From positions 1-21,041 of IMG/VR virus record IMGVR_UViG_3300020439_000102: a stretch of 21,041 nt of DNA, one strand, 5' to 3'. Position 1 is the stretch's first letter. Every line of letters starts with the position of its first letter. The position numbers were made by a program, and so were the translations under genes. The notes beneath the pieces are model-generated. The model did no database searches. It saw nothing but the letters and a program-made list of their open reading frames with translations, and was not told where the DNA came from. Positions 17,194 through 21,040 of this stretch are shown here, piece after piece. Source of the stretch: a virus.

Positions 17194-17353
17194 AGAAGTT
17201 ACTATCACACTCAGCAAGGACTTACAGGAAGACTTTGAGTCCTACATTGACTGCTGCTACTCCTTGGATGTCGCACCAAGGATCAACGCTTTTCTAAATT
17301 ATATTTACAACTACGGTACATGCAAGAATCCAAGGGAGCCACAATGGGACTGA
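17186..17353 (+). CDS. 55-residue protein between nrdA and nrdB
   Basis: This frame begins at ATG 17186 inside the last codons of nrdA and ends at TGA 17351-17353, 10 nt past the nrdB start at 17344. The protein starts MSKEVTITLSKDLQEDFESY and contains a CC pair (DCCYSLDVAP) and a further Cys. The beginning has the pattern of a short strand and helix. A role linked to the reductase is suggested only by position. An alternative start at ATG 17153 would overlap nrdA further. Nothing in the sequence identifies the family. Confidence 0.65.
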   Translation: MSKEVTITLSKDLQEDFESYIDCCYSLDVAPRINAFLNYIYNYGTCKNPREPQWD

Positions 17354-18480
17354 CAGTTTTCAATGATCGCAAGGTAGATACCAAGAAGCAACCAATGTTT
17401 TTTGGACAACCACTGGGGATGCAAAGATACGATGAGTATAAGTATCCTGACTTTGATAAACTAACTCAGACACAACTCGGTTACTTCTGGAGACCTGAAG
17501 AGGTATCATTGCAGAAGGACCGTGCAGATTACAAAACACTTAATGAACAACAGAAACACATCTACACCAGTAACCTCAAGTATCAGATCCTTTTGGACTC
17601 TGTGCAAGGGCGTGGTCCTGGTATGGCATTCTCTCCTTACTGCTCTCTTCCAGAATTGGAAGGATGCATGGGAGTCTGGGAATTCATGGAGCAGATTCAC
17701 TCCCGCTCCTATACCCATATCATCAAAAACGTATACGCAGATCCCTCAGAGGTCTTCGACGCGGTACTAGACAACGATAAGATCCTGGACCGTGCCAAGT
17801 CTGTGTGTAAGGCATACAATGAATTCATTGAAGCAGCAACTGAGTGGGCAAACGGCAACCTGTGGAAGGGAGACTGGAAAGACTCCCCCACATCTGCCTG
17901 GACAATGCGTGACGTAAAACGTAAACTCTACCTGGCGATTGCTAATGTCAATATCCTGGAAGGAATTCGCTTCTATGTTTCTTTTGCTTGCAGCTTTGCT
18001 TTTGGCGAGCTCAAACTCATGGAGGGGTCCGCAAAGATCATTTCCCTCATCGCCCGTGATGAGTCACAGCATCTGGCATTGACTCAGAAGATCCTTTATA
18101 AGTGGCAGAAGGGTGACGATCCTGAGATGCAAGAGATTGCAGAAGAAGAAAAAGAAACTGTGCGTCAGATGTTTCTCGACGCAGTAGCCCAAGAAAAAGA
18201 ATGGGCAAAGTATTTGTTTGAGAATGGTAGCATGATCGGTCTTAACGAGCGTCTGCTTTCTCAATACGTTGAATGGGTTGCAAACCGTCGCATGAAAGCG
18301 ATCGGACTGGCACCTGCCTTCGACATCCCTGCTAAGAATAATCCACTGCCCTGGACAGAGCACTGGCTAAATAGCAAGGGTCAACAAAATGCCCCTCAGG
18401 AAACTGAGATTGAGTCCTATGTCGTCGGAGGAATCAAGCAAGATGTCAGTGCTGAAACTTTTAGCGGGTTTAAGCTCTAA
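17344..18480 (+). CDS. nrdB: Ribonucleotide reductase class Ia, small subunit (NrdB)
   Basis: This subunit holds the diiron centre and tyrosyl radical that activate NrdA. All ligands read as intact: D85 (LLDSVQGR), E116 and H119 (EQIH), E222 (FAFGEL), E240 and H243 (DESQH). The radical tyrosine is Y123 in SRSYTH. The 378-residue length fits the class Ia enzyme. ATG 17344 is chosen because GGGAG lies 6 nt before it and the product begins MGLTVFNDRK. ATG 17320 is an alternative that adds eight residues. The C-terminal tail (DVSAETFSGFKL) is the part that docks on NrdA. The last 38 nt overlap the next small gene. Confidence 0.96.
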   Translation: MGLTVFNDRKVDTKKQPMFFGQPLGMQRYDEYKYPDFDKLTQTQLGYFWRPEEVSLQKDRADYKTLNEQQKHIYTSNLKYQILLDSVQGRGPGMAFSPYCSLPELEGCMGVWEFMEQIHSRSYTHIIKNVYADPSEVFDAVLDNDKILDRAKSVCKAYNEFIEAATEWANGNLWKGDWKDSPTSAWTMRDVKRKLYLAIANVNILEGIRFYVSFACSFAFGELKLMEGSAKIISLIARDESQHLALTQKILYKWQKGDDPEMQEIAEEEKETVRQMFLDAVAQEKEWAKYLFENGSMIGLNERLLSQYVEWVANRRMKAIGLAPAFDIPAKNNPLPWTEHWLNSKGQQNAPQETEIESYVVGGIKQDVSAETFSGFKL

Positions 18481-18649: not shown

Positions 18650-18688
18650 AAAAGGCAGAAAACGGTAACATGTGATACATTCGTGTTG

Positions 18689-18696
18689 CATAAATA
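18689..18696 (+). promoter_or_regulatory. Late-promoter-like CATAAATA
   Basis: CATAAATA differs from T4 TATAAATA by one base and lies in a noncoding spacer, 92 nt ahead of ATG 18788. An inverted repeat follows 5 nt later and may act as a leader hairpin. No good -35 element is visible, which is normal for T4 late promoters. Confidence 0.4.
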
Positions 18697-18700
18697 GTAA

Positions 18701-18718
18701 TGTCATGCTAGTATGACA
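18701..18718 (+). repeat. Inverted repeat TGTCAT/ATGACA
   Basis: The 6-bp arms TGTCAT and ATGACA flank a GCTAGT loop, which can close by one more G-U pair. It lies right after the CATAAATA motif, so it would be in the transcript leader or mark a protein-binding site. There is no run of T after it, so it is not an intrinsic terminator. Confidence 0.45.
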
Positions 18719-18787
18719 ATACGTTCATCCAACGGGACTCTATATCCCAATGGACGCAAGTAAGTCGCGGAACGGAGCGTTCACCCC

Positions 18788-18949
18788 ATGTTTGAATTAC
18801 TACTGTATTCATCAATGGCATGTCCAGATGCTGATGCTTTGGTCCTTCGGATCCAACAGCATGAGCACATGGAAGCAGAGGTTAAACTCGAGCTGGTAGA
18901 GACCGTAAAGGAAGCTGTACCAGAGTGCTACTGGGGCGCAAACGACTGA
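18788..18949 (+). CDS. 53-residue small protein
   Basis: The frame ATG 18788 to TGA 18947-18949 encodes MFELLLYSSMACPDADALVL, then a helical acidic stretch (EAEVKLELVETVKEAVPE) ending CYWGAND. I recall closely similar short proteins beginning with a MxELxLYSxM pattern in many cyanophage genomes, with no known function. GGAG lies about 10 nt before the start. A single helical hairpin with a Cys near each end is the most that can be said. Confidence 0.7.
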   Translation: MFELLLYSSMACPDADALVLRIQQHEHMEAEVKLELVETVKEAVPECYWGAND

Positions 18950-19013
18950 AGGAACGGGGAAACGGATCCAGCGAAAGCTGAGAAGGTTAATTACCCACTT
19001 CAGGAGAAAACAA
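18950..19013 (+). other. Intergenic RNA-like element with GNRA hairpin
   Basis: This spacer between two micro-genes has a perfect CAGC-GAAA-GCTG hairpin (18969-18980), a GNRA tetraloop. It is preceded by GGAACGGGGAAACGG, which echoes GGAACGG in the spacer at 18769. AGGAG close to 19004 is the ribosome-binding site of the following gene. The GNRA loop suggests a folded leader or processing element. No known riboswitch class is recognised. Confidence 0.4.
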
Positions 19014-19178
19014 ATGAACACACTTACTATCATCAAGAAGCAGATCCAAAAAGCATCTGCTCTTCACGATGCACAAATTGCTATGACTACCTACCGTGGT
19101 GTCAAGTATGAGTGCAAGCAGAGTGGTGAGGAAACTCACGGCACTTTCTGCTACAGAGGTCACACCTACAGCAAGTGA
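19014..19178 (+). CDS. 54-residue protein with YRGxxY motif (DUF4278-like)
   Basis: The frame ATG 19014 to TGA 19176-19178 encodes MNTLTIIKKQIQKASALHDA, a helix, followed by TYRGVKYEC and a second copy-like FCYRGHTYSK. The YRGxxY pair is the signature of a small domain common in cyanobacteria and cyanophages (DUF4278 as I recall it). This supports a cyanobacterial host. AGGAG is 7-11 nt before the start. The function of the domain is unknown. Similar short proteins occur in marine cyanophages, as far as I remember. Confidence 0.75.
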   Translation: MNTLTIIKKQIQKASALHDAQIAMTTYRGVKYECKQSGEETHGTFCYRGHTYSK

Positions 19179-19179
19179 A

Positions 19180-19275
19180 ATGGAAGCTCTACAAGTAGTC
19201 GGACTCACGTCCCTTGCATGTGTTGCGGTCATTTCTATGATTTACGGAGAGATTCTCCTCCTTCATCGGGGGTAG
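19180..19275 (+). CDS. 31-residue single-pass membrane micro-protein
   Basis: The frame ATG 19180 to TAG 19273-19275 encodes MEALQVVGLTSLACVAVISM and ends IYGEILLLHRG. About 25 residues are hydrophobic or small, enough for one membrane span, with charges only near the ends. It begins one base after the previous stop and ends one base before the next ATG, a spacing expected for real coupled genes. Function is unknown. It could act on host membrane or enzyme complexes, as other phage micro-proteins do. Confidence 0.55.
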   Translation: MEALQVVGLTSLACVAVISMIYGEILLLHRG

Positions 19276-19276
19276 A

Positions 19277-19447
19277 ATGGAAAACTATGTCTATCATGAT
19301 GATGACATGGACAAAGACAGCAGACCACCAGCATGTTACCAACTCAAATACAGAGGGGTAGCATACTGGTCCTGCTACCGTATCCATTTAACTGAATACT
19401 TTGAGAATCTGCTGAAAGTAGAGCCTCTATATAATAGGAAGAGGTAA
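19277..19447 (+). CDS. 56-residue protein with YRGVAY motif
   Basis: The frame ATG 19277 to TAA 19445-19447 encodes an acidic start (MENYVYHDDDMDKDS), then CYQLKYRGVAYWSCY with the YRGxxY motif of the neighbour two genes upstream. It ends in a basic tail (PLYNRKR). It looks like a second, divergent copy of the cyanobacterial YRG-type small domain. The stop codon lies inside the loop of the terminator hairpin, so termination and translation end together. Function is unknown. Confidence 0.65.
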   Translation: MENYVYHDDDMDKDSRPPACYQLKYRGVAYWSCYRIHLTEYFENLLKVEPLYNRKR

Positions 19448-19462
19448 CCCTCTTCCTTTTTT
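19436..19462 (+). terminator. Intrinsic terminator
   Basis: AGGAAGAGG (19436-19444) pairs with CCTCTTCCT (19449-19457) around a TAAC loop, followed by a T run to 19462. The stem is nine perfect pairs. It is the only clear rho-independent terminator in the window and closes the micro-gene cluster. Confidence 0.85.
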
Positions 19463-19638: not shown

Positions 19639-19868
19639 TGAAACTACTAACTGTTGAAGATTACGAAAAGGCAGGAGAAACATTCTGGCCTAAGTATTGG
19701 TATGTTGCCAAGGAACTTGGCGAGGATGCCAGAGCAGAAGACATTCTAAAAGTGCTTGAGTCTATTGGCACAGTTGCCTTGAGACTCAAGATGGAAGAGA
19801 AAGAAGGACCCTTCGGATTCAATAAGCAAGGCAAAGATGAAACCACAGAGTGCGAAAGCGAAGGGTAG
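19638..19868 (+). CDS. 76-residue unknown protein
   Basis: This small protein begins MKLLTVEDYEKAGETFWPKY, with a helical centre (ELGEDARAEDILKVLESIG) and an acidic end. It starts at TAATG on the previous stop and overlaps the nuclease-like gene by 32 nt in another frame. There is no catalytic or membrane motif. It appears to be an accessory small protein translated together with the nuclease. Confidence 0.6.
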   Translation: MKLLTVEDYEKAGETFWPKYWYVAKELGEDARAEDILKVLESIGTVALRLKMEEKEGPFGFNKQGKDETTECESEG

Positions 19869-20175
19869 AAACTTCCAGAAGTGGGTCAGGGATATGCTCA
19901 TTGAGCATAGAGATGTACACCCTGAGGACATAGAGTCTCGCAGCATGGGTGCTGGTGGGGAGGATCTGATCATGGCACGGGATGCCAGGTCAAAGTTTCC
20001 CTTCAGCATCGAGTGCAAGAATGTGGAGAGACTCAATGTTTATGATGCTTACGAGCAAGCATGTGCTAACGCAGGAGACCACCAACCGATCCTTTTCATG
20101 AAGAAGAATCGGAAGCAACCACTTGTCGTAGTGGACGCTGAGTGGTTTATCAAACACTTTGGGGTTGACAAGTGA
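19837..20175 (+). CDS. Small PD-(D/E)xK nuclease-like protein
   Basis: This 112-residue protein shows a helix (GRNFQKWVRDML) with an early acidic residue, then SRSMGAGGEDLIMA with D43 and a strand FSIECKN with E59-x-K61. After that comes AYEQACANAGDHQPILFMKK. The order D, ExK and a following helix is the core of PD-(D/E)xK nucleases. The compact size resembles Holliday-junction resolvases such as Hjc, but also VRR-type nucleases. A resolving or repair role in recombination-dependent replication is plausible and is inference. It ends 47 nt before the next gene with a sigma70-like promoter overlapping its 3' end. Confidence 0.7.
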   Translation: MKPQSAKAKGRNFQKWVRDMLIEHRDVHPEDIESRSMGAGGEDLIMARDARSKFPFSIECKNVERLNVYDAYEQACANAGDHQPILFMKKNRKQPLVVVDAEWFIKHFGVDK

Positions 20176-20967: not shown

Positions 20968-21040
20968 GGGACAGTAGCTCAGCGGATAGAGCAACTGCCT
21001 TCTAAGCAGTCGGTCGTAGGTTCGATCCCTACCTGTCTCG
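20968..21040 (+). tRNA. tRNA-Arg (anticodon UCU)
   Basis: This 73-nt sequence folds as a tRNA. The acceptor GGGACAG pairs with CTGTCTC (one G-U). The D stem is GCTC/GAGC, the anticodon stem ACTGC/GCAGT with loop CTTCTAA, and the T stem GTAGG/CCTAC with TTCGATC. The anticodon TCT (21001-21003) reads AGA/AGG. The discriminator is G, and no CCA is visible before the window end. It lies only 6 nt after the oxygenase stop. Phage-borne Arg(UCU) tRNAs help translate AGA codons. Confidence 0.93.

Follow-up and report, generated by a model that had tools for sequence, protein, structure and literature searches.

Cyanobacterial glutamine riboswitches activate genes for DUF4278 proteins, and in IF17, the factor that inactivates glutamine synthetase, DUF4278 makes up the N-terminal part (consulted sections of PMC6316151). 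The glutamine-I and glutamine-II aptamers have a common set of ligand-contact bases (as given in the consulted part of PMC6698751), and glutamine riboswitches have already been reported in cyanophages (excerpts of PMC9964418, PMC9602691, and PMC9004378).

The window analyzed here is a stretch of 21,041 nucleotides, a 21-kb virus record with a gene order as in T4-like cyanophages. It was matched by 429 of 50,697 phage records, nearly all of them from Synechococcus or Prochlorococcus phages. A gene taken to be nrdB from annotated relatives (17320-18480) lies before a cluster of four small genes, ORF1 to ORF4. The same cluster genes follow nrdB in isolates Syn9, S-SM1, and S-MS29, where they are annotated as hypothetical only and without any RNA feature. 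We propose that the cluster is probably an operon led by a type-I glutamine aptamer, with ORF1 placed in aptamer helix P3 and another gene, ORF0, in helix P2 of many relatives. The features are collected in the table.

Features of the cluster and its leader in the window (positions of the whole stretch)
Feature	Positions	Strand	Remarks
Weak sigma70-like promoter position TTGCAT-17-TAGTAT	18686..18714	+	Ends 7 nt before the aptamer
Aptamer helix P1, 5' strand CGUUC	18722..18726	+	Pairs with GAACG 18952-18956 across ORF1
Aptamer arm P2	18728..18754	+	In the window a hairpin, UCCA:UGGA (18728-18731 with 18751-18754) closing the loop
Joining strand and loop-E half CGCAAGUA	18755..18762	+	C18757 forms the long-range pair with G18957
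Aptamer helix P3, 5' strand AGUCG	18763..18767	+	Pairs with CGACU 18943-18947
Hairpin H, GAACG-GAG-CGUUC	18770..18782	+	ORF1 Shine-Dalgarno GGAG in and beside the loop
Stem S, 5' strand CCCC	18784..18787	+	Directly before the ORF1 AUG; pairs with GGGG 18933-18936
ORF1, 53 aa, PHROG 504	18788..18949	+	E 9.6e-25; embedded in the aptamer
Aptamer 3' half	18933..18957	+	S 3' strand, CGCAAA, P3 3' strand, GAA, P1 3' strand, G18957
Helix T, 5' strand CUGAAG	18946..18951	+	Contains the ORF1 stop UGA; overlaps P3
GGAUCC-(GNRA hairpin)-GAGAAGG module	18964..18986	+	In the T loop; in a subset of relatives only
Helix T, 3' strand CUUCAG (18998-19003)	18998..19006	+	Overlaps the ORF2 Shine-Dalgarno AGGAG 19002-19006
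ORF2, 54 aa, PHROG 545	19014..19178	+	Probable DUF4278-type protein
ORF3, 31 aa	19180..19275	+	Coordinates read from sequence; one hydrophobic segment (by eye)
ORF4, 56 aa	19277..19447	+	Weak match to the second half of DUF4278, E 0.035
Intrinsic terminator	19436..19457	+	ORF4 stop in the loop

The first-pass annotation had described four microgenes of 31 to 56 codons, three of them spaced by one base. All four are present, with 53, 54, 31, and 56 codons, and the one-base gaps are those between ORF2, ORF3, and ORF4. The GNRA hairpin spacer it had noted was found as a GAAA hairpin (18970-18979) inside the 64-nt spacer between ORF1 and ORF2, and the intrinsic terminator (19436-19457) indeed holds the ORF4 stop in its loop, TAAC. 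The terminator had a folding z of -3.5, and 1 of 200 shuffles was as stable. Frame conservation had been named beforehand as the test that could speak against the genes. ORF1 to ORF4 were all found conserved with synonymous-biased substitution, the in-frame pN/pS being 0.40 for ORF1, 0.32 for ORF2, 0.39 for ORF3, and 0.23 for ORF4. These values are low compared to shifted frames (0.83-1.72), and the frames therefore behave as genes in that test. The description as a run of micro-proteins with structured spacers held for the genes, but the spacers are more than that, being parts of an RNA that extends across ORF1 as far as the start of ORF2. The structured RNA begins at 18722, upstream of 18788 where the annotated run began, and its enclosure of ORF1 had been missed. 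Judged from the sequence, the cluster is likely to be a riboswitch operon and not a loose run of genes. The suggestion that ORF1 to ORF4 are host take-over factors is plausible, and is narrowed by the probable DUF4278 class of ORF2.

Further downstream in the window we observed a PDDEXK/RusA-like nuclease gene (19837-20175) and a tRNA gene (20968-21040). An operon that also feeds talC was considered and rejected, since a terminator-like hairpin with a T-run is located between the cluster and talC in Syn9 and S-SM1, as read from their sequences.

The first lead to the aptamer was a sub-threshold match to Rfam Glutamine-II just before ORF1 (18719-18781; 19.5 bits against a threshold of 33). All 14 relatives whose leader is complete gave sub-threshold Rfam matches to glutamine families at the same leader position. 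Folded alone as a single sequence, the leader was unremarkable (z -0.74). The upstream sequences of relatives contain a nearly invariant core that ends at the ORF1 start, and this core is present in 415 deposited phage records. In ten loci without ORF1 the core (unit 1) is followed immediately by a second, similar unit (unit 2), and in nearly all other loci unit 2 consists of the last codons of ORF1 and the bases after them. Read together, units 1 and 2 most likely represent one type-I (glnA) glutamine aptamer, built as a three-way junction of P1, P2, and P3. The elements are arranged in the order P1, P2, CGCAAGUA, P3, and then GAAGGAACGG after the P3 3' strand, so that the aptamer consists of a 5' half (18722-18767) and a 3' half (18943-18957) overlapping the end of ORF1. 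Inside P3 are ORF1, hairpin H, and stem S, which spans ORF1 by joining bases before its AUG to its last codons. The two strands of P1, like those of P3, are separated in the mRNA by approximately 175-225 nt that include a translated gene, and this counts against the model. The loop-E halves AGUA and GAA flank P3, as AAGUA-P3 and P3-GAAGG, both in the sequence and in Rfam alignments. Since CUAAAG replaces CUGAAG in 47 of 212 listed loci, the second half of loop E can be GAA or AAA. The contact bases of glutamine-I, mapped here to 18722, 18756, 18955, and 18956, were invariant in 72 of 72 aligned sequences, and from these invariant bases we infer that the ligand would be L-glutamine.

Locus counts are given among loci listed by pattern scans. 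Both aptamer halves were found in 212 of 215 distinct listed loci, the exceptions being two loci at a contig end and one with an insertion in H. Counts on 212 or 206 loci, the tandem-pairing test, and the platform-motif set include all rows. The alignment of 72 sequences was made from 108 candidate leaders, 36 of which, mostly with long, different ORF1s, were left out before counting. In this alignment 99.5% of 1656 cells were paired, compared to 95.0% when shuffled and 33-54% when slid, and 55 cells were two-sided, compared to 7.2 when shuffled.

The helices differed in how much they varied. P2 had 97.2% of cells paired in the alignment and two-sided changes in all 4 pairs. P3 was paired in 100% of cells with one-sided changes only; the two-sided variant AAUCG:CGAUU was found in one listed locus (L299) and in one locus of the platform-motif set. 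For P1, one pair had a two-sided change in the alignment. Among the 206 listed loci (6 of 212 lacked the 5' sequence), P1 was CGUUC:GAACG in 204 and CGUUU:AAACG in 2, and the corresponding numbers among the matches listed for the platform motif were 81 and 1. Hairpin H was paired in 212 of 212 listed loci, as GAACG:CGUUC in 198 and CAACG:CGUUG in 14. P1, P3, and H vary little, and covariation is therefore silent on most of their pairs. In stem S, 128 distinct pairs of arms were seen, and the first four pairs were formed in all 212 listed loci, compared to 0.913 of pairs with the partners shuffled. On a tree built without the 3' columns of ORF1, tree-independent pairs that changed the same way outnumbered those that changed in opposite ways by about 10 to 0 for S, about 12 to 0 for T, and 6 to 0 for H. 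The long-range pair was C:G in 291 of 293 matches listed, G:C in one (L295), and a mismatch in one (L182). Both halves were changed in L295, which makes the change compensatory. L182 is a degenerate copy with a broken long-range pair and no DUF4278 gene downstream.

Two further searches started from other parts of the element. A search with unit 2 only listed 127 loci, of which 6 were at contig ends; unit 1 was found in 119 of the 121 others, four of these being variants read by eye. The search for an unrelated motif, the platform motif, listed 99 loci, of which 8 were too short, 5 were duplicates, and 1 was a chance match. Among the matches listed that remained, 83 of 85 were complete with every tested helix paired. 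In L290, L368, and L390 (also in L248) the core is broken between unit 1 and ORF1 by a reading frame or insertion. At the equivalent position isolate Sf-CH5 carries a gene annotated as a homing endonuclease, so homing may be directed at the core.

The Rfam model for glnA (RF01739) provided an independent view of the fold. It exceeded its threshold of 35 in 6 of 9 ORF-less loci tested (38.4-43.6 bits), while the other three scored 30.1, 30.9, and 34.1 bits. The alignments ran from unit 1 through unit 2 and took the insert as the P3 loop. RF01739 does not contain a gene-sized P3 loop; of nine ORF-split records tested, six viral records and three isolates, none scored over the Rfam threshold, and for the window itself the scan listed Glutamine-II only, at 19.5 bits. 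The helices, the two-half aptamer, and S, H, and T are thus supported by covariation together with an independent Rfam model. The ORF-less phage element in L295 reads GACGGAAGUA plus GAACGC, the Rfam glnA consensus, and is a possible link to the host form. Searching 84,980 prokaryote species genomes for a host copy with the unit-2 pattern gave 23 matches, none in a genome titled as cyanobacterial, which by estimate is about chance level. Two other RNAs were encountered in relatives, PhotoRC-II above the Rfam threshold (L174, 1021-1116) and wcaG below it (L070, 5407-5508).

The two units could also be two separate glutamine aptamers in tandem, each with its own CGUUC:GAACG, and not one split junction. 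Either pairing is possible in 192 of 206 listed loci, both units read CGUUCA-stem-ACGCAA-...-GAACGG, and glutamine riboswitch doublets are common (157 in the consulted part of PMC9481103). On its own, unit 2 exceeds the Rfam Glutamine-II threshold in one locus (L198; 34.0 against 33), and unit 1 alone gives sub-threshold matches to both glutamine families. However, all 14 listed loci that discriminate between the pairings, by having CAACG, can form the composite pairing but not the tandem one. Covariation at the long-range pair links the two halves and is not seen within unit 1, the Rfam glnA alignments extend from unit 1 to unit 2, and the AGUA half of loop E is found in unit 1 only, while the GAA half is found in unit 2 only. 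We therefore find tandem aptamers improbable and retain the single split aptamer.

An ORF1 started by ATG was found in 201 of 212 listed loci. Its stop lies inside the aptamer in 192 of the 201 and outside in 9, which counts against the model. ORF1s stopping in the aptamer almost always end with DAND, GAND, or DAHD, and in the window the final codons GGC GCA AAC GAC belong to the aptamer. The tail is nearly fixed at synonymous sites, with GCA in 148 of 150 cases and AAC in all 134 asparagine codons. Two dissimilar ORF1 families have the tail, a hydrophobic start, and two cysteines in common, but little else; profile comparison of the two main families gave 75%, in part through the RNA-dictated tail. 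AlphaFold modeled ORF1 as a helical hairpin (mean pLDDT 82.6), and its best structural match in PDB was no better than E 4.

Purifying selection on all the ORFs would also be expected of a plain micro-protein cluster, in which the RNA structure is incidental and the DAND tail of ORF1 a feature of the protein. This reading is highly improbable, as the tail is fixed at synonymous sites, is common to dissimilar ORF1 families, persists as RNA in loci without ORF1, and has partner bases in the leader that covary with it. Isolated microgenes with incidental spacers were rejected on account of the covariation across ORF1 and the synonymous fixation.

ORF0, of 65 codons or so, fills P2 in 69 of 206 listed loci. 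Its start, and usually also its stop, is located in or beside the P2 stem, and in Syn9 it corresponds to gp196, with gp197 as ORF1 and gp198 as ORF2. The window has no ORF0 and its P2 is a short hairpin. ORF0 is under purifying selection (pN/pS 0.26), and its presence has changed at least 23 times on the tree. The idea that ORF0 and ORF1 belong to one protein family was discarded, as profile comparison was weak (9 and 25%).

The signature YRGxxY was found in 202 of 205 complete downstream ORFs of the listed loci. The downstream region was readable in 210 listed loci, of which 202 had YRGxxY, 2 a close variant (L106 and L107), 1 neither (L182), and 5 reached the contig end; a further 2 among the 212 listed loci end too early for downstream reading. 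All of 27 ORF2 relatives matched DUF4278 (PF14105) at E 0.1 or better, the best at 1.7e-7, and ORF2 of the window scored 23.2 bits against a cutoff of 25.3. By these profile matches ORF2 is probably a DUF4278-class protein. A sequence search of PDB with ORF2 found nothing. ORF3 and ORF4 had no PHROG match and were found in 86 and 96 of 299 listed loci, respectively. ORF3 appears as a conserved, optional insert between ORF2 and ORF4. ORF2 matches the first half of DUF4278 and ORF4 the second half, a pattern resembling one domain divided between two micro-proteins.

A leader that binds a protein or couples translation without any ligand, its likeness to a glutamine aptamer being a relic, would account for the near-invariance of the core across 415 phage records, a degree of conservation that is uncommon among riboswitches. 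Ligand sensing would moreover be disturbed by translation of a gene within the aptamer. Against this, the bases proposed to contact the ligand do not vary, forms lacking ORF1 pass the Rfam threshold for glnA, and the gene downstream belongs to a class under host glutamine riboswitch control. A ligand-free element is therefore rather unlikely.

The link from this aptamer to ORF2 would be helix T, in which CUGAAG from the ORF1 stop region forms six pairs with CUUCAG in the ORF2 leader. T was paired in 99.5% of cells with 22 two-sided cells in the 72 sequences, and CUAAAG was found solely with CUUUAG (46 of 47 listed loci, those with the partner read). T and P3 use common bases, and the aptamer and T are therefore mutually exclusive. 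The GGAUCC-hairpin-GAGAAGG module falls in this riboswitch in 104 of 105 distinct matches listed (103 counted and L401 by eye). Its 3-bp stem is kept in 102 of the 105 matches listed, with a GNRA or other tetraloop, and the module may be a second regulatory site.

In the proposed mechanism helix T would cover the ORF2 start when glutamine is absent. Folding of the aptamer with glutamine would open T and allow translation of ORF2 to ORF4. Alternatively, T could be opened by a ribosome ending ORF1, which would occupy the same strand with the same outcome for ORF2 to ORF4. Because folding of the aptamer closes a stem around the ORF1 start, glutamine should lower ORF1 and raise ORF2; the geometry thus predicts ORF2 ON and ORF1 OFF with glutamine. 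Reading the gene and folding the sensor would be mutually exclusive, so that one short RNA computes an OR between glutamine and a ribosome that has just finished ORF1, and thereby opens the next gene. In this reading complete genes under selection would themselves be arms of the sensor, in a widespread riboswitch architecture, and we regard it as having about an even chance of being correct. If true, cyanophages get a combined readout of the nitrogen state and the translation capacity of the host. Speculatively, ORF2 might adjust host nitrogen assimilation during infection, and an effect on host glutamine synthetase is equally speculative.

The promoter of the operon is less clear in the window than in its relatives. 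By our own reading the match in the window is poor, with 5 of 12 positions mismatched, which counts against the model, and scanning the window for promoters gave no hit. Among the matches listed for relatives, 165 of 193 distinct upstream regions had at most three mismatches to TTGACA/TATAAT, compared to 20 of 193 when shuffled, and the -10 element ends mostly 7-9 nt before CGUUC. The -10 of the window lies within an inverted repeat. In most relatives the -10 is inside a palindrome directly before the aptamer, e.g., GGTCTATAATAGACC, and this palindrome is a possible operator.

The phage RNA resembles the type-I glutamine riboswitch (RF01739) in P1, P2, P3, loop E, the long-range pair, and the contact bases; its ORF-less forms exceed the Rfam threshold, and a DUF4278 gene is found downstream in both. 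It differs in that a complete gene for a protein is housed in P3 and often also in P2, that the halves are approximately 175 nt apart, that there is an extra inner hairpin and an ORF-spanning stem, and that the split form is missed by Rfam. With the type-II class (Downstream-peptide, RF01704) it has in common the sequence CGUUCA-stem-CGCA-...-GAACGG, the association with small proteins in marine picocyanobacteria, and the DUF4278 genes. RF01704 is however a pseudoknot without P3, whereas the phage peptide gene is inside the aptamer and not only downstream. The pseudoknot pairing of the 5' CGUUC with the GAACG of its own unit was lost in 14 of 14 discriminating listed loci. The additional files of Weinberg 2010 reportedly mention a conserved stretch of amino acids associated with Downstream-peptide RNAs.

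The control of IF17/gifB in cyanobacteria likewise has a glutamine riboswitch before a DUF4278 protein (consulted sections of PMC6316151), while the phage ORF2 has only a DUF4278-like part. A putative glutamine sensor appears to control small proteins resembling part of IF17, and the virus may in this way read the nitrogen state of its host. Phages S-CREM1 (PMC9964418) and Melnitz (PMC9004378) carry a glnA-type RNA as well, found by database searches, and the excerpts consulted of these two papers do not describe a gene within the aptamer. In the open PMC literature subset we found no description of genes in glutamine-aptamer arms. For an ORF inside an aptamer we found one precedent, uMetE2 in the metE B12 aptamer of M. 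tuberculosis, a short translated ORF that overlaps the aptamer and affects the downstream gene; in the consulted part of PMC11260477 it has about 16 codons, a UUG start, and occurs in one riboswitch, and its conservation is not described. The arm genes of the phages in contrast have approximately 49-66 codons, a conserved protein sequence, and are found in hundreds of loci.

With this analysis, a cluster of genes annotated as hypothetical becomes a nitrogen-sensing operon that can be tested, its absence from RNA databases is explained, and there is a concrete lead on how cyanophages might tune host nitrogen assimilation. If true, aptamer arms can house whole genes, with sensing and translation linked on the same bases, and the dual coding of protein tail and aptamer strand would be a clean system for RNA-protein co-evolution. 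Self-splicing introns have ORFs in their peripheral loops, and thus also house a gene in a loop of a structured RNA. The phage RNA differs from these in being a putative metabolite sensor whose genes are not homing endonucleases, and in that the start-proximal bases and the last codons of the gene belong to the fold.
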